Under the pieces are notes generated by a model. The model ran no database searches. It was given only the letters and a program-made list of their open reading frames with translations, and had not been told where the DNA came from. A program made the position numbers and the translations under genes. Below, piece by piece: positions 49,970 to 61,178 of a stretch of DNA of 61,178 nt. Within the stretch, counting starts at the first letter, position 1. Each line of letters begins with the position of its first letter. Source of the DNA: Elusimicrobiota bacterium. Lineage in GTDB: Bacteria > Elusimicrobiota > Elusimicrobia > UBA1565 > UBA9628. Location: assembly GCA_016207665.1 (NCBI GenBank), contig JACQPG010000160.1, positions 1 to 61,178 of the forward strand, in the 5' to 3' direction.

Positions 49970-50434
49970 CTAGAAACCGCTGCTCATCGGACCTTTGGCG
50001 GTCCGGTCGATGCTCGGGGGCCGGGTCTGAAGGATGTTGTGAATGGTGGTGGCCATGATGACGGGTCGCAGGGGTTTTTCCATGAACTCGCGCACATTAG
50101 GCTCCAGACGCAACATCTCGATGCTCTTGCGATCCATCTGCCGGCCGGTGATGACGATCACCGGTACCGCGCCGCAGCCCTTGGCCTGAAGCTCGCGCAG
50201 CACCTCATAGCCGCCCATGCCGGGAAGCATGAAGTCGAGTATGATCAGGTCGGGGTCCAAGGCCTGGGTCTTGCGCAAGGCCTCCAGGCCGTCGGTCGCC
50301 CTGTCGGTCTTGAACCCCTCTTTCTTGACCACGTGATCAATCAAATCGAGAAGGCTCTCATCGTCATCAACCAAAAGGACCATCTTCTGCGAGGGATCGC
50401 ACAAAGGGGGCCCCTGGGGCGCTGTATCTTCCAT
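49970..50434 (-). CDS. Stand-alone response regulator receiver protein
   Basis: 154 residues with one receiver domain: LLVDDDESLLDLIDHVVKKEGF, phospho-acceptor Asp67 in LIILDFMLPGMGGYEVLRELQ, Thr in IVITGR and Lys in EFMEKPLRP. No output domain. It is a paralog of the adjacent receiver at 50445 and the one at 35695, and lies 10 bases after the former. Confidence 0.92.
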   Translation of the reverse strand: MEDTAPQGPPLCDPSQKMVLLVDDDESLLDLIDHVVKKEGFKTDRATDGLEALRKTQALDPDLIILDFMLPGMGGYEVLRELQAKGCGAVPVIVITGRQMDRKSIEMLRLEPNVREFMEKPLRPVIMATTIHNILQTRPPSIDRTAKGPMSSGF

Positions 50435-50444
50435 TCGCTCGCTC

Positions 50445-50870
50445 CTAGACCGTGGGCTCCGGCGGCTTGGTCTTGAGCACCTTGTGCAGGGCCGTGCCGA
50501 GCACCTGGGGTTTGATGGGCTTTTCGAGGAAATCCATGACGTTGGACTCTTGCCTTATCATCTCCGACGTGGTCCTGTCGGTGTAACGCCCGGTCACCAC
50601 GATGATGGGAATCTTGCCCGTCTCGCCGATCTGAAGCTGCCGCAATATCTCGAAGCCTCCGTAGCGGGGCAGCATGAGGTCGAGCACGACGCATTGCGGC
50701 ATGACCTTGTGGATCAGGGCGATCCCTTCCTCGCCGTCCCCCGCGCTTTGGACCTTGAACCCCTCGCGCTTGGCCACGAACTCGATGAGCTCGCGCACCG
50801 CCTCGTCGTCGTCGATGACCACGACGAGCTTATCCTGGGGCCGATCGGACGGCTCTGCCATACCTGCCAT
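50445..50870 (-). CDS. Stand-alone response regulator receiver protein
   Basis: 141 residues with one receiver domain: VVVIDDDEAVRELIEFVAKREGF, phospho-acceptor Asp64 in CVVLDLMLPRYGGFEILRQLQ, Thr in IVVTGR and Lys in DFLEKPIKP. The ATG at 50870 (an ATG at 50861 is possible) follows the terminator of the glycine operon. It heads the 14-gene run that reaches 38446. Paired with its paralog at 49970, it may share one sensor elsewhere. Confidence 0.92.
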   Translation of the reverse strand: MAGMAEPSDRPQDKLVVVIDDDEAVRELIEFVAKREGFKVQSAGDGEEGIALIHKVMPQCVVLDLMLPRYGGFEILRQLQIGETGKIPIIVVTGRYTDRTTSEMIRQESNVMDFLEKPIKPQVLGTALHKVLKTKPPEPTV

Positions 50871-51794: not shown

Positions 51795-54659
51795 TCAAGC
51801 GCCGCAGGAGCAGAAAAAGTTTCGATCTCCGTACGCGTTGTCGATGCGCCCGACCGCGGGCCAGTATTTGTGCTCCTTGAGCCATGGCGCAGGGAAGACG
51901 GCCTTTTGGCGGGAGTAGGGATGGGTCCAGGTCTCTTGCGCGAGGCTGTCCGCGGTGTGGGGAGCGTTCTTGAGCACGTTGTCGGCCTTATCGGCCCTTC
52001 CCGATTCGATATCCCGGATCTCCTCGCGTATCAGTATCATCGCCTCGCAAAAGCGGTCGAGCTCGGCCTTGGACTCGCTCTCGGTCGGCTCGATCATCAC
52101 CGTTCCGGCGACCGGGAAGGAGATGGTCGGAGCGTGGAAACCGTAGTCCATCAGGCGCTTGGCCACGTCCTCGACCTGGATATCGGCGGCGGCCTTGAGC
52201 GGTCGGAGGTCCAAGATGCACTCGTGAGCCACCCGGCCCTTCCGGCCGGTGAAGAGCACCGGATAATGCCCGGAAAGCCTGTGGGCGACATAGTTGGCGT
52301 TGAGGATGGCGATCTCGCTGGCGCGCTTCAAGCCCTCGCCGCCCATCTGGACGATATAGGACCAGGAGATGGGCAATATGGACGCGGAACCCCAAGGAGC
52401 GGCCGAAACCGCGCCGGCCTTCCCGTCGCGCGACAGAGGGTGACGCGGAAGGAAAGGAGCCAGGGCCGCACTCACCGCGATCGGCCCCATGCCGGGACCC
52501 CCTCCTCCATGCGGGATGCAGAATGTCTTGTGCAGGTTGAGGTGGCAGACGTCGGCGCCGAAATCGCCGGGCCGGCAAAGCCCCACTTGGGCGTTCATGT
52601 TGGCGCCGTCCATGTAGACCAGGCCCCCGTGCACGTGCACGACGTCGCAGACCTCCTTGATCTCCTCCTCGAAAACCCCATGGGTGGAGGGGTAGGTCAC
52701 CATCAATGCGGCCAAATCCTTGGCATGGGCCGAGGCCTTGGCCTTGAGATCGGCCAGGTCTATGTCCCCTCCGGCGGAAGTCGCCACGGCGACGATGGCG
52801 AAGCCGGCCATGGCCGCGGAGGCCGGGTTGGTGCCGTGGGCCGACTGGGGAATGAGGCAAACCTTGCGATGCCCTTCCCCCCGGCTCTTGTGATAGCCCT
52901 TGATGGCCAAAAGCCCGGCATACTCGCCCTGCGAGCCCGCGTTGGGCTGGAGCGAGACCGCGGCAAGGCCGGTGATCTCGGCCAATTGGCCCTCCAGCTC
53001 GCGGAACAATGACTGATAGCCTCGCGCTTGCTCGGCCGGGGCGAAGGGATGCAGGCGCGAGAAGCCCGGCCAGGTGACGGCCATCATCTCGGAGGCGGCG
53101 TTGAGTTTCATCGTGCAGGAGCCCAAGGGGATCATCGAGGTGTTCAAGGACAGGTCCTTGGACTCCAGCCGCTTGATATAACGCATCATCTCGGTCTCGG
53201 AGTGATATTGGTTGAACACCGGATGGCGGAGGAACTCGCTTTGCCGGGCCAGGGACGCCGGGAAAGAGAGCTCCGGCGAGGCGGCCGCCAACTCTCCGGG
53301 CCGAGCGGTATGGGAGCCTCCGAATATCTCGAGCAGCTCGGCCACGTCGGCCTCCGCCGCGCACTCGTCGAGCGAGATCGTCAGTCCGTCCGGCCATTCC
53401 CTCAGATTGATGCGGCGGCGCCGGGCCTCGGCCATGATCTTGGCCCTGGACGAGGCATCGACGAACACCCGCACTGTGTCGAAAAACGGCTCCGAACCGA
53501 GCTCGAACCCGAGGCTCTTGAGCCCCTCGGCCAAGGCGCAGGCCAAGGCATGGATGCGCGCGGCTATGCGCTTAAGCCCGGCCGGCCCGTGATAGACCGC
53601 GTACATCGAGGCGATCACGGCCAAGAGCACCTGCGCGGTGCAGATATTGCTGGTGGCGCGCTCGCGGCGTATGTGCTGCTCGCGCGTCTGCAGGGCCAGG
53701 CGCAGCGCGCGCCGCCCGTTGGAATCCTTGGACACTCCCACGATGCGGCCGGGAAGCTGCCTCTTGTACGCGTCGCGGGCCGCCATATAGGCCGCATGAG
53801 GGCCGCCGTAACCCATGGGCACGCCGAAACGCTGGGCGCTGCCGACCGCGATATCCGCCCCGAACTCGCCCGGCGCCCTGAGCAAGGTGAGCGCGAGCAG
53901 GTCGGCCGCGCAAGTCACCACCGCTCCCGCCTGGTGGGCCCGCTCGCACAGCGAGGAATAATCGATCACCGAGCCGTCCGTGTTGGGATATTGGATCAAC
54001 AGCCCGAAGGGCTTGCGTCCGAGGTCGAAGCGCTCGGGGCGGCAGACCTCCACCTGGAGGCCCAAGGCCTCGGCGCGCGTGCCCAACACCTCTATGGTCT
54101 GCGGATGGCACAGGGACGAGACCAAGAAGAGATTGGAATCGGAGGCGCTGACCGAGCGCGACAAGAACATGGCCTCGGCCGCAGCCGTCGCCTCGTCGAG
54201 CAGGGAGGCGTTGGCCACGTCCAAGCCCGTCAGCTCCATGATCATGGTCTGGAAATTGAGCAGGGCCTCTAGCCGTCCCTGGGCGATCTCGGCTTGATAG
54301 GGAGTGTAGGCCGTGTACCAACCCGGGTTCTCGAGTATGTTGCGCTGAATCACCGGCGGAGTCACGGTGTCGTGATAGCCCGCCCCGAGATAGGACCTGT
54401 AGATCTGATTGAGCTGCGCAAGCTCGCGCAGCCGGGCCAGGGCTTCGTTCTCCGGGAGGGCGGCGGGGAGCTTGAGCGGGGAGCGCAGCCGGATGGCTCG
54501 GGGCATGGTCGCGTCGATGAGCGCCTCGAGGCTGCCCGCGCCCAGCTCCTTGAGCATTTGGGCGATCTCCCCGGCATCCGGGCCGATATGGCGCGCGGCG
54601 AAGGAGTCGGAGGCTGGTATGGCGCCCTTGGCGGCCGGCCGGGTCTCAGTGCCCATCAT
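51795..54659 (-). CDS. gcvP: Glycine dehydrogenase (decarboxylating), P protein
   Basis: 954 residues, the single-chain form rather than the split gcvPA/gcvPB. N-terminal half: [21 protein letters not shown] and [21 protein letters not shown]-terminal half: [20 protein letters not shown] with the PLP lysine near residue 708, and IDMNAQVGL-like motifs. It decarboxylates glycine and passes the aminomethyl group to the lipoyl arm of GcvH. The start overlaps gcvH by 14 bases. Confidence 0.96.
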
Positions 54660-55044
54660 GAGCCGGAGCCTTGAGATACTCCTGGTATTGGGCCCAATCC
54701 ATCAGCTTCTCCAGCTCGGAAATCTGGCTGGGCTTGATTTGGAAGATCCAGCCTTGATCCTGGGGAGAACGATTGACCAGTCCGGGATCGGCCGAAAGCG
54801 CCTGGTTGGCGGCCACGACTTCGCCTGATATGGGAGCGTAGATGTCGAAAGCGGCCTTGACTGACTCTATCACCCCGCAAGACTGGCCATGGGCGACCTT
54901 GCGCCCCGGCTTGGGCGGGTCGACGAAAACCACGTCGGTGATCTCTTTTTGCGCGTGCTCCGAGATCCCGACCCAGGCGGTCTCCTTGTCGAGCCAGACC
55001 CACTCGTGACTTTTCATATACCGGCAGTTCTCAGGTTCAGGCAT
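54646..55044 (-). CDS. gcvH: Glycine cleavage system H protein
   Basis: 132 residues. The lipoyl-carrier lysine is Lys63 in [20 protein letters not shown], with the usual [22 protein letters not shown] opening. It shuttles the aminomethyl group between GcvP and GcvT. It overlaps gcvT by 8 bases and gcvP by 14, indicating close coupling and fixed stoichiometry. Confidence 0.96.
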
Positions 55045-56164
55045 GATGTTTCCGGGATGACAGTGAAGGTGATACGTAAAACGGAACGGCGGAGACTTGC
55101 GCGGGGACCTTGCGCCCGTGTATCTCCACCTCGAGGGCGGCCCCGGCAGCCAGGTCCGCCTGGGAAAGATACCCCACGCCGATGCCCTTTTGAAGCGTCG
55201 GAGAGAAGGTGGCGCTGGCCAAGGAGCCTATCTCCCTGCCTTGATGAAAGACCCGGCAGCCGGGCCTGGGCACGCCCCGTTCTTGGAGCGCGACCCCGGT
55301 CAGCCGCCTCTTGAGGCCGCCCTCTCTTTGCTTGAGCAGGATGTCCCGGCCGATAAACGGGCCCTTGTCCAACTTGACGACCCACCCGTAATTGGCCTCG
55401 AGGCTGGTATGCTCATCGTCGATATCCTGGCCGTAGAGCAGATAGCCGGCTTCGAGCCTCAAGGTATCGCGGCTGCCCAAGCCGCAGGGGGCGGCTCCGA
55501 TCGAGCGCCCCTTGGTCAGGAGATTGTCCCAGACGCGCAAGATCATCTCGTTGGGCACGATGAACTCGAAGCCGTCCTCTCCCGTATAGCCGGTGCGGGT
55601 GATGATGCTGGGCTGATCGAAGATGCGGCATTCCATGGCGCCGAAGCGGGGCAGGGCGGCCGCCTGCGGGAAATCCGTAGCCACGATCTGTTCCGCCTTG
55701 GGGCCCTGCACCGCGATCATGCCGTAATAGTCGCTTTCGTCCTTGAGCTCGACATCCAGGCCCTCGGCCTGTCTGCGCAGCCAGCGGAAGTCCTTCTCGC
55801 GCGTGGCCGCGTTGACCACGACGAAATAGCGCTCCGGTCCCAGGCAGGAGATGATCACGTCGTCGACCACGCCTCCTCGCTCGTTGGGCAGATGCGAATA
55901 GATGGCCTTCCCCGGCCGAATCTTGGAGATATCGTTGGTGTTGGTCTTTTGGAGCAGCTTCAGCGCGTCGCGACCCTGCGCCACAACCTGCCCCATATGG
56001 GACACGTCGAAAAGCCCGCACAAGGAGCGCACGGCCGCATGTTCCTTAAGTATGCTCTCATACTGGATGGGGAGCTCCCAGCCGTGGAAATCGACCATTT
56101 TCGCGCCCAAACTCACATGGGCATCGAAAAGCGCGGTGCGCCGGAGTTCTGTAGTGGCGGCCAC
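55037..56164 (-). CDS. gcvT: Aminomethyltransferase (T protein)
   Basis: 375 residues beginning at a GTG (56164). Landmarks: VDFHGWELPIQYES, GLFDVSHMGQV, TRTGYTGEDGFEFIVP and the C-terminal LASATFSPTLQKGIGVGYL. It transfers the methylene unit to tetrahydrofolate and releases ammonia. First gene of the operon gcvT-gcvH-gcvP-lipoate ligase-RAM protein. A good promoter with an internal palindrome ends about six bases before the start codon, and there is no ribosome-binding site. Confidence 0.96.
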   Translation of the reverse strand: MAATTELRRTALFDAHVSLGAKMVDFHGWELPIQYESILKEHAAVRSLCGLFDVSHMGQVVAQGRDALKLLQKTNTNDISKIRPGKAIYSHLPNERGGVVDDVIISCLGPERYFVVVNAATREKDFRWLRRQAEGLDVELKDESDYYGMIAVQGPKAEQIVATDFPQAAALPRFGAMECRIFDQPSIITRTGYTGEDGFEFIVPNEMILRVWDNLLTKGRSIGAAPCGLGSRDTLRLEAGYLLYGQDIDDEHTSLEANYGWVVKLDKGPFIGRDILLKQREGGLKRRLTGVALQERGVPRPGCRVFHQGREIGSLASATFSPTLQKGIGVGYLSQADLAAGAALEVEIHGRKVPAQVSAVPFYVSPSLSSRKHHA

Positions 56165-56347: not shown

Positions 56348-57215
56348 GGCGCTGAGCCTCGGCGTCGAGCCCGAAAAGGGCGGAGCGATCGCGAGCCTGG
56401 AGCGAATCGTCGGCGGGAAGAGGACGCAGCTGCTCTACACGTCCGACGGCCCCGGCTGGACCGGCGGCGCGCCCTGGATGTTTCCGGCGGTGGGGCGAAG
56501 CCGCGCGGACGGCAAGCCGGGATTCTGGCGCTTGGATGAGCGAATATTTCCCATGCCCATACACGGCTTTGCCGGCAGCCAGCGCTGGGACGGCTCGGCC
56601 GACGGAGAATCGATCAGCTGCCGGACCGAGAGCGGCCCGCCAACCCGGCTTCATTACCCCTTCGACTACACGCTCGAAGTCGTCTATCGCCTTTCGTCCG
56701 CGGGCCTGAGCGCGACGGTGGAAGTGAGCGCGGGACAGGGAAACACCCGGCCCATGCCCTTCTCCCTGGGCAATCACCTGACTCTCAAGGCCCCGTCCCC
56801 CAAGGACTGCTGGCTGCGCGCGCCGGCCTCGCAGGAATGGCTGCTCTCGGAGGCCGGTTTATTGACCGGCAAGACCCGTCCCGCGGCGCTGGGCTCGCCC
56901 GTGCTTTTGTCCGCCGATCGCCGCTGGCTCGATTGCGTCCTGAGCGGCTTTCCGCCGGGCGAGGCCTGGGTGGAGGTGGTCGACCCGGGGTCTTTCGGCG
57001 TGCGCGTCAGCCAAAGAGAGCTCTTGGATGCAGGGCGGCCCGCGAGGACGCGGCCGGAGCATTTCTGTTTCGTATTCTACGGCGACGCCAGCGGGGCTTT
57101 TTTCTGCCCCGAGCCGTGGTACGGCCGGCCCAATTCGCTCAACGAGCGCCAAGGCGTCGTGGAGCTGGAACCCGGGGGGCGCTTCCGCTGGGAGATGGCG
57201 CTGGAGCTGATCTAG
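56328..57215 (+). CDS. Aldose 1-epimerase-family (galactose-mutarotase-like) protein
   Basis: 295 residues. Beta-rich sequence with LSLGVEPEKGGAIASLERI at the start, GGAPWMFPAVGRSRADGKPGFW, PMPIHGFAGSQRWDG where the His corresponds to the family substrate-binding position, and LGNHLTLKAP. Members interconvert sugar anomers or act on phosphorylated sugars; this one is of the short, divergent type. The ATG at 56328 is the first possible in frame after a stop. Its 3' end overlaps the convergent phosphotransferase by 4 bases. Confidence 0.8.
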   Translation: MLRLENKALSLGVEPEKGGAIASLERIVGGKRTQLLYTSDGPGWTGGAPWMFPAVGRSRADGKPGFWRLDERIFPMPIHGFAGSQRWDGSADGESISCRTESGPPTRLHYPFDYTLEVVYRLSSAGLSATVEVSAGQGNTRPMPFSLGNHLTLKAPSPKDCWLRAPASQEWLLSEAGLLTGKTRPAALGSPVLLSADRRWLDCVLSGFPPGEAWVEVVDPGSFGVRVSQRELLDAGRPARTRPEHFCFVFYGDASGAFFCPEPWYGRPNSLNERQGVVELEPGGRFRWEMALELI

Positions 57216-58342
57216 ACCCGCGCCTTTTCGAGGCAGCGCCTGATGTCGGGCTCGGACTGCTCGATCGACTCGCAAAGCCGGAATTGCACCCGGGCCCGGT
57301 TGAGATTGTGGCCGGGATAGCGGGTCTTGAAGTAGACGTCGCCCGCCAGATGGTCCTGGAAAAAACGCAAGCCCAGCTCGAAGGCGATCAGGCGTATGGA
57401 GTCATACAGGCGGCCGCGATCCTCCGCGGTGAGGAAATCACTGGCGCGCGATAGATAGCCCAAGACGAAGGCCTCGCACAGGCCCACGTCGAAGCGCACC
57501 TCGTCGAGCTCCAGCGCCTCCTCGCCGGCCGGGTTGCAGATCGAACGCAGGGCGTCGCCGAAATCGTAGTGGATCAACCCCGGCTTGACCGTGTCGAGAT
57601 CCACGATGCTCGTGCCCTTCTTGGTCAGGTCGTCGATCATGATGTTGTTGACCTTGGGGTCCCCGTGGATGAGCCGGCGTTTGAGCGCCCCCCGCTCCAG
57701 CGCCTGCTCCAACACGTCGACGAAATTCCTGCGCCGGTCGACGAAATCCTTCAGTCTTTCGACTTCCTTGTTCCCGTTGGCCCTCTGGGAGGTTTCCCGC
57801 CCCCGCGCTATCTCGTCGTAGGACTTGAGATAGCCCGGCGTGACGTGAAACCCGGGAAGCGTGTCCCTCAGCCTCGAGGCGTCGAGATCGGACATCAGGC
57901 GGTGGAACTGGCCTAGCACGGTGCCGGCCTCGCGGGCGTGCTCGGGTCCTTGCGCCTTGTCGTAGGATGTAGCCGAGGCGATCACGGTCAGGGCCCGCCA
58001 CCATTCCCCATCGCCGTCAACGTGATAGGGGCGGCCGTCGCGAGCCGCGATGAGCTTGGGCAACTGCCACAAGCGGTCGGCGCCCTCCGATTCGCGCTCG
58101 AGACGGCGATGCGCGTGCTCGGTCACCACGCTCATGTTCTCGATGATCCATTCCGGCTTCTTGAACACCCGCTGATTGATGCGCTGGACTATCCCCCTCG
58201 CCTCGGAAAAATGTGTGCGGAAAACCGCCAGATAGGTGTCGTTGACGTTGCCGGCCGCGATCGGGCCCAGATGCACCAGGCGGCCGGGAAAGTCGAATTG
58301 CCGGGCCACCTCAGAGGCGCGAGCCAGACGTTGTTCGGTCAT
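57212..58342 (-). CDS. Phosphotransferase-family kinase (aminoglycoside phosphotransferase / N-acetylhexosamine kinase-like)
   Basis: 376 residues from the ATG at 58342. The protein-kinase-like fold is shown by GPIAAGNVNDTYLAV at the nucleotide loop, RRLIHGDPKVNNIMID with the catalytic Asp, and SIVDLDTVKPGLIHYDFGDALRS with the metal-binding Asp. The HGDPKVNN and DTVKPG pattern resembles NahK-type sugar kinases. It probably phosphorylates a small sugar or sugar derivative. Position next to an aldose-epimerase-like gene agrees with sugar salvage. Confidence 0.85.
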   Translation of the reverse strand: MTEQRLARASEVARQFDFPGRLVHLGPIAAGNVNDTYLAVFRTHFSEARGIVQRINQRVFKKPEWIIENMSVVTEHAHRRLERESEGADRLWQLPKLIAARDGRPYHVDGDGEWWRALTVIASATSYDKAQGPEHAREAGTVLGQFHRLMSDLDASRLRDTLPGFHVTPGYLKSYDEIARGRETSQRANGNKEVERLKDFVDRRRNFVDVLEQALERGALKRRLIHGDPKVNNIMIDDLTKKGTSIVDLDTVKPGLIHYDFGDALRSICNPAGEEALELDEVRFDVGLCEAFVLGYLSRASDFLTAEDRGRLYDSIRLIAFELGLRFFQDHLAGDVYFKTRYPGHNLNRARVQFRLCESIEQSEPDIRRCLEKARV

Positions 58343-58644
58343 GACCGGGCTAACGCTCCGATCAGGGCCTTGGCGAGCCTGCCGCGCGCCAGCGCGTCGG
58401 AGAACGCGAGCTCGGCCAGGCAATAGCCGTCGGCGTCGATCTCCACCGCGGAGACCGTGCCGGGCACGGACTCGAACCGTTCTCCGCCCAGTTCAAGGGA
58501 CAGGAACAGCTTCTCGCCTCGCGAGAGGCGGGTCTGGGTCAATAGTTTCGCGCCCGAGGACCAAAGATTGATCAAGCGGCCCCAGGCGTCCTGGCGGGCG
58601 GCCTCGGATGGGAAGGACAGAAGCGCCGGAATGGAAGCGGGCAT
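58339..58644 (-). CDS. PilZ-domain-like small protein
   Basis: 101 residues: WGRLINLWSSGAKLLTQTRLSRGEKLFLSLELGGERFESVPGTVSAVEIDADGYCLAELAFSD. The strand pattern and the LINLWSSGAKLLT element resemble PilZ domains, but the RxxxR motif needed for clear cyclic-di-GMP binding is not obvious. It overlaps the kinase start by 4 bases and the propeller gene by one base (TAATG), so all three are coupled. Confidence 0.6.
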   Translation of the reverse strand: MPASIPALLSFPSEAARQDAWGRLINLWSSGAKLLTQTRLSRGEKLFLSLELGGERFESVPGTVSAVEIDADGYCLAELAFSDALARGRLAKALIGALARS

Positions 58645-59783
58645 TAGAATCGGAGCGCATGGCGGAACACTCGGGCCGGTCCGCCGCTGGCGCTTTCTCC
58701 CACGGTCCAAAAGGCCTGGCCGTCCCAGGCGATGCCCACCGGCTTGTAGCGGCCGTCGCGATATTCGGCCAAGGCCACCCGGCCCGAGGCCTCGTCGGGC
58801 CTCTCCAAATTGTGCCTGACCAGCTCTCGATTGCCGGCATCGAGCGACCAGAGAGTCTTGCCGTCGAAGGCCAAGGCCGCGGCCTTGAGCCCGGGATAAG
58901 GAAAGGAGGCCACGACGCTCAATTGGCCGTCGTTGAGCCTCTTGTGTATGCGTCCGGAGCGCCCGTCGCAGGTCCAGAGATAAAGGCCGTCAAAGGCCAG
59001 GCCCAGGGTCGCCCCCGGCTCGCGATAGCTCTGCACGCGGGTGAGCTTGTCGTCGCGCATATGCCGGCTGATGGCGCCCGAGGCCGAGGCGGTCCAAGCC
59101 GAGTCCGCGCCGAAGGCCACGGCCACCGGAGTCTCGGACGGGAAATGGATGAGACGCTTGACCGACCAGTCCTGCGCGGAATGCTCGTAGATCGATTGCG
59201 TGAACCAGTCCACCACCCAGAACGAGGCGCCGTCGAAGGCCAGGGTGGAGGGATGCTGATAGGGCAGGTCCCAGCGCCGCGCCGCCCTCTCGCTTTGCTC
59301 CTGAAGCCGTATCCGGCGCTGCAGCGTCGCCACCGCCAGACCGCAAGCAAGGAAGGCCAGCACCGCGAAGAAATAGAAAGAGGCGCCGCGGCGCGAGGCG
59401 GGCGGAGCCAAGCCGATCGAGGTGCCTTCGAATCTCAGGCTCTTGGAAAGGCAGGAGCGAAGCGACTCGCGAGTCCAAGGCGGAGCCACCACCTCCGAGG
59501 CTCCGATGCGCATGAGAGAGACCGCCCGGGCCGCGTCCCGCTTCTTGAGCGCCACCACCACGGGCATGAGCGGGCTCGCCCTCAAGATCTCGCGCAGCAA
59601 CAGGGCGCCGTCCTGCTCCTTGGAGTCCACCACCACCATCAGCCGCGGCCGCGCGCTGCGCAAGAGCTCGACCGCCTCGCCGAGCTGCGCCGCCGAGTGG
59701 ACGATATGCCCGGCCTCCCCCGCGGCCAAGGACAGGGCCCTGCGATCCTCCTCATTGGAGCCCACCAGGCCTATGATCGCCAT
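58644..59783 (-). CDS. Membrane protein with N-terminal receiver-like and C-terminal beta-propeller-like domains
   Basis: 379 residues. Residues 1-125 resemble a receiver domain (IIGLVGSNEEDRRALSLAAGEAG, then Asp53 in RLMVVVDSKEQDG, VVALKKRD, EVVAPPWTRESL) but the usual Thr and Lys are altered, so phosphorylation is doubtful. A membrane helix follows (about 133-154, GASFYFFAVLAFLACGLAVATL). The rest contains repeats such as STLAFDGASFWVVDWFTQSIY, VAFGADSAWTASASG, LGLAFDGLYLWTCDGRSGRI and AALAFDGKTLWSLDAGNREL, typical propeller blades, here on the far side of the membrane. I know no family with this order. Confidence 0.65.
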   Translation of the reverse strand: MAIIGLVGSNEEDRRALSLAAGEAGHIVHSAAQLGEAVELLRSARPRLMVVVDSKEQDGALLLREILRASPLMPVVVALKKRDAARAVSLMRIGASEVVAPPWTRESLRSCLSKSLRFEGTSIGLAPPASRRGASFYFFAVLAFLACGLAVATLQRRIRLQEQSERAARRWDLPYQHPSTLAFDGASFWVVDWFTQSIYEHSAQDWSVKRLIHFPSETPVAVAFGADSAWTASASGAISRHMRDDKLTRVQSYREPGATLGLAFDGLYLWTCDGRSGRIHKRLNDGQLSVVASFPYPGLKAAALAFDGKTLWSLDAGNRELVRHNLERPDEASGRVALAEYRDGRYKPVGIAWDGQAFWTVGESASGGPARVFRHALRF

Positions 59784-59795
59784 TTCATGCCCTCG

Positions 59796-61133
59796 TCAGC
59801 GGCGCGGCTCCGGAATGCTGAGAGTCGCTCCCTCCTGGGGAAGCCCCCGCTCCACCTTGTCCCGATTGGCCTCGTAGATGGTCTCCCAGAGATTGGGATC
59901 GCCGTAATAGGTCTTGGCCAGCGAGCGCAGCGTGTCCCCGGGCTGGACCACGTGCTTGCGCGGCCAGGCCGGGGGCGCGGGCTTCTTGGGCTCCTCGGGC
60001 TTGGCCGGCTCGAAGGCCGCCTTTTCGGCCTGGGCCTCGCGGACCTGGAACTCCAAGTCCTCCTTTTTCCTCTGGAGCGATCGGAAATCGTCCTGGAGCT
60101 CGCGCACCCGCCGCTCGAGCACGCGCAACTGCCCGTCGGCGATGTCCCGATTGGTCTGGGACGCCTTGGTCTGGGCGTCCAGGCTCTTGCGCTGCTCCTC
60201 GAGGCGGTTGATCTCGGCCTTGAGCGACTCGGACTCGCTGGCGGCTTGGCCCACGAACGAGCCCGAGAACGAGGGCGCTCCGAATCGATAATTGAGTCCG
60301 ACCTGATACGACCCGGCGCCCCGGTTGATGCCTCCGATCGGCAATGTCATGGCCATGTCCAGCACCATGGGCGAGAAATTCACGCCGAAGCCGAAGGCCA
60401 GCTGGCTCACGCCGTCGAGCCTCAGCCCCTTGCCGATACGCGCCTTGAGCAAGCCCTGGTGAAAGGCGGCCTCCAGGCCGGGATAGATCTCGGTCAGGCC
60501 CGGACGGGAACGAAGGTCCACGGCCGCCGTCAGCCATTTCCTCCACGTGTATGCGCCGCCCATCACGAGCATGGGCCGGGGAGTCCCCACCGCGGTGATC
60601 AAGTCGAGCAGGGCCAGGGAGCCGCTCACCCCCGAGTTCGAGCGCAAGAGAATCCCGGCGTCGAAACCGAGCCCGAATTTTCCTTTGACGTCCGGCCCCT
60701 TGTCCACGTTGATGAACTTGAAATTGGCCCCGAACTTGACGGGCCGGGTCAGATGCAGCTCCGGCACGCGCCTTTCCTGCGCGTAGTGGAAAAGGAATGC
60801 GTCCCTATCGCCTCCGTGATATTGGCGCTGGAACAGGTAGGCCGCGCCCACGGTGGCCGTGGGCACCGGCTCGAAGGGCCTGAGATAGGTCAATGTGCCC
60901 ACGGTCATGGGCCCCACCGGGGAGTGAAAACGGCCCAGCCCGGAGCCGGCTTGTATGTAGGGCGTATTGGCCGTGCCCGCGGGGTTGTAGAACAGGGCGT
61001 ACGGGTCATCGGCCACGGCCGAATAAGCCATGCCCATGCCCATGGGCTTGGCTCCAGGCAAGAAATCGGAGAATTTAGCCGCCCTGGCCGGGCCCGCCAG
61101 GGTGAAAAACAGGGCCAAAGCCAAAGCCCTCAT
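59796..61133 (-). CDS. PorV/UPF0164-like outer-membrane barrel with coiled coil and C-terminal LysM domain
   Basis: 445 residues from the ATG at 61133 (an ATG at 61160 would add nine residues). A signal peptide (MRALALALFFTLAGPARAA) is followed by FLPGAKPMGMGMAYSAVADDPYALFYNPAG, the PorV-like opening, and a barrel to about residue 280. Then comes a long coiled coil (KAEINRLEEQRKSLDAQTKAS, LERRVRELQDDFRSLQ), a Pro/Ala/Lys linker, and a LysM domain (KHVVQPGDTLRSLAKTYYGDPNLWETIYEANRD). It would sit in the outer membrane with its LysM domain holding peptidoglycan. It is 12 bases before the propeller gene. Confidence 0.82.
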   Translation of the reverse strand: MRALALALFFTLAGPARAAKFSDFLPGAKPMGMGMAYSAVADDPYALFYNPAGTANTPYIQAGSGLGRFHSPVGPMTVGTLTYLRPFEPVPTATVGAAYLFQRQYHGGDRDAFLFHYAQERRVPELHLTRPVKFGANFKFINVDKGPDVKGKFGLGFDAGILLRSNSGVSGSLALLDLITAVGTPRPMLVMGGAYTWRKWLTAAVDLRSRPGLTEIYPGLEAAFHQGLLKARIGKGLRLDGVSQLAFGFGVNFSPMVLDMAMTLPIGGINRGAGSYQVGLNYRFGAPSFSGSFVGQAASESESLKAEINRLEEQRKSLDAQTKASQTNRDIADGQLRVLERRVRELQDDFRSLQRKKEDLEFQVREAQAEKAAFEPAKPEEPKKPAPPAWPRKHVVQPGDTLRSLAKTYYGDPNLWETIYEANRDKVERGLPQEGATLSIPEPRR

Positions 61134-61178
61134 GCAGCGCCAGTAGGCTGGCTCTATCATGTCTTATCGGTCCCGATT

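Follow-up and report, generated by a model that had tools for sequence, protein, structure and literature searches.

A conserved barrel–propeller–PilZ-like gene module of Elusimicrobiota as a candidate trans-envelope unit related to type 9 secretion

According to the cited passages, the type 9 secretion system (T9SS) is confined to Bacteroidetes or the Fibrobacteres–Bacteroidetes–Chlorobi group (PMC7463736, PMC11205867). Within the P. gingivalis system, the barrel PorP is described in the passages cited as binding PorE (a five-bladed propeller with a peptidoglycan-binding domain), a pair proposed to form a tie to the cell wall (PMC9143113, PMC7192894, PMC5053529), and the cited part of a further source describes dedicated cargo–shuttle pairs in F. 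johnsoniae (PMC12618676). Here we describe a three-gene module at the right-hand end of a 61,178-nucleotide stretch of Elusimicrobiota DNA (hereafter the window), which comprises an entire contig (JACQPG010000160.1, our G000:C139) of a 2.78 Mb source genome, G000, held in 161 contigs. Its minus-strand genes encode, in order, an outer-membrane barrel with a coiled coil and LysM domain, a protein joining a receiver, a transmembrane (TM) helix and a propeller, and a PilZ-like protein (Table 1). In our judgment the chances are evenly balanced that these constitute a trans-envelope unit related to T9SS, which arose from a two-component system and serves in anchoring or gating. Three close genes of these kinds had been proposed from the letters of the window (hereafter the sequence-only reading), and gene calls, profiles and models recover all of them; the proposed span of 58339–61133 holds for the genes themselves, with the exception of the barrel start, which lies at 61160 rather than 61133, the contig ending just upstream of that gene. 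For the PilZ-like gene, the most likely start is the ATG at 58644.

The arrangement of the module is beyond chance, because the same gene order (barrel, receiver–TM–propeller, PilZ-like) on a single strand is kept at 37/37 loci outside the window in the genome set, and likewise at 42/42 loci from named genomes. These two sets overlap; removal of identical sequences leaves 46 distinct loci besides the window, all of which (46/46) are conserved, in keeping with the conserved neighbourhood on which the sequence-only reading depended. The relatives recovered by protein search (46 loci) are Elusimicrobia/Elusimicrobiota metagenome-assembled genomes or records named only as “bacterium”. Spacing is tight, with a median gap of 1 bp between the barrel and propeller genes and an overlap of the propeller and PilZ genes in 35/42 loci. 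Full-length orthologues of the middle protein (status assigned by bit score) occur in 38/57 related genomes, source genome included, and separate profile searches for the barrel and PilZ families divide the same 57 genomes into 39 with all three families (the divergent G049 counted), 15 with none and three with the barrel alone, so that the three families co-occur in a nearly all-or-none pattern, genome-wide co-occurrence being a check that the sequence-only reading had proposed. The barrel-alone genomes are G004, in which the barrel is cut by a contig end, and G047 and G056, in which its partner has changed. Alignments A1, A2 and A3 drew on 22/38, 20/38 and 27/38 of the available orthologues, and A4 and A5 on 41/43 and 36/43. 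Were these three unrelated genes, brought together by accident or by shared transcription only, one could appeal to the fact that the functional link between them rests on sequence and structure prediction; the order kept at every one of the 46 loci, the touching or overlapping frames and the joint absence of the families from 15 of the 57 genomes strongly disfavor such a view, which we find scarcely credible.

Profile matches and a predicted structure indicate that the first protein is a PorV/FadL-type barrel carrying its own putative peptidoglycan anchor, composed of a long helix and a LysM domain. It matches NCBIfam PorV_fam at E 1.9e-6 (27.7 bits, below the curated cut-off of 90; 28.1 bits in the genome scan) and Pfam LysM PF01476 at E 4.1e-4 (20.7 bits, just below the cut-off of 20.9, covering positions 1–43 of 43 in the profile), and use of a family profile matches its LysM region to the Kbp LysM at E 1e-6. 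The AF2 model (mean pLDDT 87.7) presents 14 strands, N-terminal helices, an 84-residue helix spanning residues 298–381 and a LysM-like fold at 401–449; the strand number and N-terminal hatch segment of PorV/FadL barrels are both present, and the PorV–LysM assignment of the sequence-only reading is upheld by this model together with the sub-threshold profile matches. Foldseek places T9SS PorV chains first and third (8gl6_F and 6h3i_F), and VIA-align gives Z scores of 29.0 and 28.6 for PorV chains and 29.8 for FadL, effectively a tie, with root-mean-square deviations of 2.4–3.3 over 254–262 residues for the FadL and PorV structures. The pTM values of the barrel and middle-protein models (0.61 and 0.65) are such that relative domain placement is not readable from either.

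The FadL likeness admits a reading based on uptake, in which the barrel would import a hydrophobic substrate, an upstream hydrolase would process it and the inner-membrane protein would regulate or sense load. The highest VIA Z falls to FadL/TodX-type transporters (with PorV tied), many loci have a predicted α/β hydrolase and a porin-like protein upstream, and metabolic gcvT-H-P genes follow in many. Against this, a LysM domain and a helix of 84 residues would be unexpected for a simple transporter, the unit includes no inner-membrane transporter, and homologous barrel–propeller pairs share operons with T9SS-type cargo (described below); we regard uptake as unlikely.

The middle protein matches Response_reg at E 1.2e-5 (below the cut-off), as do 19/22 orthologues at E ≤ 0.1. 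In its model (mean pLDDT 93.2) the receiver fold is complete, residues 131–167 form one continuous helix and 20 strands make up a five-bladed propeller, so that both the receiver fold of the first domain and the propeller are borne out by structure prediction. The receiver was originally said to lack some key residues, which is correct yet understated, since essentially all are missing across 47/47 sequences: relative to intact receivers of the same phylum, the phospho-Asp, Lys and Thr are each found in 0/47 module receivers (with Ser at the Thr position in one), and no sequence has the full acidic pair (first position 0/47; second position Asp in 1/47 and Glu in 3/47). The Pro following the Lys position is retained in 47/47. 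With these residues gone, the module of the window lineage can therefore be no ordinary phospho-signaling device, and an active phosphorelay through it was rejected on receiver residues. Other residues are invariant instead (R14, P71, R82, A84, R86, G94, P102), and because R82, A84 and R86 sit in the predicted structure at the β4–α4 corner, near the former active site, the model suggests that they may form a retained binding face.

The closest structural matches of the propeller are a type I glutaminyl cyclase (3mbr, Z 25.6) and E. coli YjiK (3qqz, Z 23.2). N-terminal pyroglutamate matters for exported proteins of Bacteroidetes, and a glutaminyl cyclase function was considered on account of this and of the fold; Pfam scans of the window protein and its orthologues list no match to the glutaminyl cyclase family, and this candidate function was set aside as unsupported.

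The third protein of the window has no Pfam match itself; PilZ (PF07238) is matched by 9/27 of its orthologues at E ≤ 0.1 (best 1.4e-10), a Trp-Gly pair is invariant in the family, and on sequence grounds the protein is predicted to have a PilZ fold. The cyclic di-GMP (c-di-GMP) motif, RxxxR with [DN]xSxxG, is missing from the window protein, and both halves are found in just 1/52 distinct module strings (a set including differently trimmed copies from the same 47 loci). The original label of a PilZ-like protein is hence retained, its c-di-GMP motif having been lost; c-di-GMP sensing in the window lineage was rejected on motif residues.

Paralogues give an indication of how such a module could have arisen. 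The propeller has many of these across the genomes searched; 60 regions were taken from its many weaker matches (among them L156, beside the divergent module), and these together with L075–L077 form the basis of the paralogue counts. Fourteen loci combine an intact receiver, TM helix and propeller, and in 14/14 a histidine kinase gene lies directly upstream (kinases called by G2-box motif, with Pfam HATPase_c confirmed in the four scanned). Several of these loci go on to encode a LysM protein together with a large outer-membrane-like one. At two, L077 and L192, the order is a protein with a weak T9SS-type C-terminal domain (CTD), a PorV–LysM barrel, a kinase and a receiver–TM–propeller protein, all on one strand in overlapping or close frames. 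The divergent copy in G049, L156, has a PorV–LysM gene, a kinase-like gene (whose phospho-His, by eye, is not at the usual place), a degenerate receiver–TM–propeller gene and a PilZ gene with RxxxR and NxSxxG intact, and is an intermediate between kinase-linked and window-type loci. In the barrel tree the G049 barrel forms a long branch, which leaves its exact position unsure. The loci can be arranged as a series, running from intact kinase and receiver, through degenerate receiver with intact PilZ, to the window type in which both are degenerate and the kinase is absent. This suggests that the unit may have evolved from a two-component system in which the response regulator was anchored in the membrane and had the propeller for its output.

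The same loci furnish the case for a signaling device that still works, wherein the propeller, and hence the barrel, would be switched by phosphate on the receiver or by c-di-GMP bound to PilZ: intact-receiver paralogues adjoin histidine kinases, and the L156 PilZ keeps its motif. Within the module proper, every receiver lacks the phospho-Asp, Thr and Lys, no acidic pair is complete, a single PilZ string holds both motif halves and no kinase gene appears among the module neighborhoods listed; we consider a working switch very improbable.

At two further loci (L237 and L238, in G047 and G056) a propeller gene with a lipoprotein signal replaces the receiver–TM form beside an orthologous barrel, and is followed by a gene for a 366–369 aa protein with a C-terminal TM segment. 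The G047 and G056 barrels nest inside the orthologous clade in the barrel tree (which omits eight partial or frameshifted rows). Since the propeller is a lipoprotein at these two orthologous loci, barrel and exported propeller would form a constant core around which the cytoplasmic half varies, and a homologous propeller is thereby placed in the periplasm. From this, and from the soluble-type kinases at paralogous loci, we infer an N-in topology for the middle protein with its propeller in the periplasm, outside the inner membrane. Another reading is that of an accessory of outer-membrane protein assembly, in which a FadL-type partner barrel would be joined by a propeller like BamB, with a tie to the wall. 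Propellers are known parts of the β-barrel assembly machinery (BAM), and FadL-type subunits of Bacteroidota BAM do match the module barrel (9n2d_B Z 24.6, 9hjm_F 24.1, 9hiv_F 23.5). These scores are ~5 Z units lower than those of FadL and PorV, BamB has more blades and is a lipoprotein, a form that the propeller does take at the two orthologous loci, and no bam gene was noticed adjoining the module, without any search having been aimed at bam genes; a BAM accessory is, to our minds, improbable.

Our preferred reading, of a unit related to type 9 secretion, draws on the wider content of these genomes. A 1855-aa frame of the source genome (G000:C19:5508-11072, minus strand, locus L206) matches Sov/SprA (TIGR04189) at 206.7 bits against a cut-off of 200, and Sov/SprA-matching pieces are found in 53/57 genomes, with no single piece over the cut-off in the genome scan because the matches to this protein are fragmented. 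Between 8 and 30 PorV_fam matches occur in each of 18/18 genomes; the source genome has 24 such rows, some being fragments of a single frame, and about 20 PorV-type barrels. Por_Secre_tail (TIGR04183) exceeds its cut-off in 10/10 genomes, and in the source genome 6/10 of its matches end 78–111 bp upstream of a same-strand PorV-family match (on C23, C55, C27, C59, C72 and C47). By analogy with F. johnsoniae, these sorting-domain/PorV neighbors would represent the layout of dedicated cargo–shuttle pairs. A GldM search matched 0/57 genomes, but its controls gave no match either.

A second type of cassette brings barrel and propeller together with cargo: PorV–coil, coiled-coil–TM–propeller, CTD cargo of ~1050–1240 aa and PorV genes are complete in 8/24 loci, a denominator that retains loci without a cargo gene (e.g. 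L178, L186, L187, L189, L201). All of the cargo ends scanned (13/13) match a model of T9SS CTD-bearing proteins (PorZ 13/13 and TIGR04183 10/13, at E ≤ 0.01), most with a YPNP motif. The presence of CTD cargo in this second cassette means that barrel–propeller pairs belong, at least in part, to T9SS-type operons. The sequence-only reading had offered a “signaling or secretion device” matching no described system: ordinary phospho-signaling in the window lineage falls with the degenerate receivers, secretion gains T9SS-family pointers from fold, cassettes and genome context, and the field of described systems narrows to the type 9 (Sov/SprA–PorV) family.

We propose that the three genes would encode a single trans-envelope unit. 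The propeller, held in the periplasm on its TM stalk, would dock either on the barrel's periplasmic face or on its long helix/coil, and the LysM domain would fix the docking point to the wall, such that inner membrane, wall and PorV-type barrel become mechanically tied. The pseudo-receiver and pseudo-PilZ would act as a cytoplasmic foot, holding a partner rather than switching by phosphate or c-di-GMP. So constructed, the unit would most probably position or gate a PorV-type carrier of the type-9-like (Sov/SprA) machine, holding or releasing it at a chosen place, a role akin to the one that PorP/PorE plays in Bacteroidota.

Several observations weigh against this proposal. No CTD cargo gene was seen beside the window-type module, whose usual neighbors are glycine-cleavage genes, an α/β hydrolase and a porin-like protein; the CTDs at L077 and L192 are weak (19.4 and 20.5 bits against a curated cut-off of 23); and the barrel matches FadL transporters as strongly as it does PorV by VIA Z. 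Lys/Arg counts flanking the TM helix favor a cytoplasmic propeller side in 33/47 sequences, so that N-in topology is not supported by the charge rule, and the originally proposed location of the propeller outside the inner membrane agrees with the lipoprotein form at orthologous loci and disagrees with these charges. Lastly, Sov/SprA is present in 14/15 genomes that have no module, showing that the translocon can do without the module; the candidate role of an essential part of the SprA machine was ruled out on this count.

A bolder extension, which we hold as doubtful, is that the type-9-like machine of Elusimicrobiota has another power and control train, in which inner-membrane propeller proteins would pull or release PorV carriers instead of, or beside, GldLM. 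The ancestral form would have been an inside-out two-component system (kinase to membrane response regulator to PorV barrel), and the window would hold its hard-wired descendant, devoid of kinase, phosphate and c-di-GMP control.

Table 1. Features of the module in the window, its adjoining gene, and related loci elsewhere
Feature	Position or loci	Strand	Basis and remarks
PorV/FadL-type outer-membrane barrel + coiled coil + LysM, 454 aa	59796..61160	-	profile matches, AF2 model; at all orthologous loci
14-stranded barrel, residues 69-293	60282..60956	-	AF2 model; FadL Z 29.8, T9SS PorV (8gl6_F) Z 29.0
84-residue helix (residues 298-381), then disordered Pro-rich linker	60018..60269	-	AF2 model
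LysM domain, residues 401-449; putative peptidoglycan binding	59814..59960	-	Pfam, family profile, AF2 model
Pseudo-receiver, TM helix and five-bladed propeller protein, 379 aa	58644..59783	-	Pfam, predicted structure, structural matches
Degenerate receiver domain, residues 1-117	59433..59783	-	predicted fold; catalytic residues missing in 47/47
Long helix 131-167 with single TM segment	59283..59393	-	predicted structure; hydropathy >= 1.6 in 43/47 sequences
Five-bladed beta-propeller, residues 170-375	58659..59276	-	20 predicted strands; best structural match 3mbr Z 25.6
Degenerate PilZ-like protein, 101 aa	58339..58644	-	ATG overlaps stop of receiver–TM–propeller gene
APH-family kinase gene, neighbor outside the conserved module	57212..58342	-	Pfam APH E 1.8e-17; overlaps PilZ stop
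Kinase-linked receiver–TM–propeller loci	L143-L149, L152, L153, L155, L163, L192, L077, L075		
Complete four-gene cassette loci	L142 (G000:C122:14500-23500, source genome), L168, L173, L180, L181, L188, L193, L198		

The APH-family kinase was considered as a fourth member of the module and ruled out, with no match across 40 neighborhoods (L038–L077, of which 37 are module loci). Glycine-cleavage genes occupy 51795–56164 of the window and lie downstream of the module in 28/42 related loci (gcvT, often with gcvH and gcvP); adjoining this cluster, at 49970–50870, is a tandem pair of single-domain receivers whose catalytic residues are intact, related ones being present in several relatives. Upstream of the module, an α/β-hydrolase-like gene and a porin-like gene (L105:6384-7298 and L105:4953-6380) are conserved in many relatives and are possible further members.

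With a Sov/SprA homologue, PorV-type shuttles and CTD cargoes, Elusimicrobiota extend the described range of T9SS. The barrel–propeller modules could represent a signaling pathway that became linked directly, through both membranes, with an outer-membrane machine and later decayed into a structural part, and the conserved series of intact to degenerate forms makes this transition testable. Two-component systems would gain a new output class in a response regulator that carries a TM helix and a periplasmic propeller. In the open-licence literature we found no description of T9SS, PorV or SprA in Elusimicrobiota (the term SprA matching mostly unrelated words), nor of membrane-bound response regulators with a propeller output or of receiver–propeller combinations. 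The folds of all the parts are known; what appears to us to be new is their combination, its descent from a kinase-linked response regulator of the membrane, and the phylum.

Individual elements of the module find partial counterparts elsewhere. FrzS/AglZ pseudo-receivers and degenerate PilZ proteins of Myxococcus are non-catalytic protein-binding parts, as the cytoplasmic domains here may be, but they belong to cytoplasmic motility regulators and are not fused to a periplasmic propeller. The type I glutaminyl cyclase and YjiK have the propeller fold in common with the module, but at 13–16% identity over the aligned stretch. Like two-component response regulators, the middle protein has a receiver fold, and its intact-receiver paralogues adjoin kinases; unlike them, a TM helix and propeller replace the DNA-binding or enzymatic output, and the window-lineage receiver is inactive as judged by sequence. 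The module barrel resembles PorV, the carrier of the T9SS translocon, in its 14-stranded FadL-type architecture and Foldseek ranking, and differs in falling far below the PorV_fam cut-off, in possessing a coil and LysM domain and in having no adjoining CTD cargo; its likeness to PorV as a cargo carrier comes from genome context, with SprA and CTD proteins encoded in the same genome. Among the arrangements described in the passages cited, PorP/PorE is the nearest, comprising the same three ingredients of barrel, five-bladed propeller and peptidoglycan-binding domain. PorE unites TPR, five-bladed propeller, CRD and OmpA_C-like wall-binding domains in one lipoprotein, of which the module shares the propeller only (Pfam scans of the window proteins and middle-protein orthologues give no TPR, CRD or OmpA match); in the module, the wall-binding LysM domain instead sits on the barrel, the propeller is carried by an inner-membrane receiver protein, and a PilZ-like protein is added.

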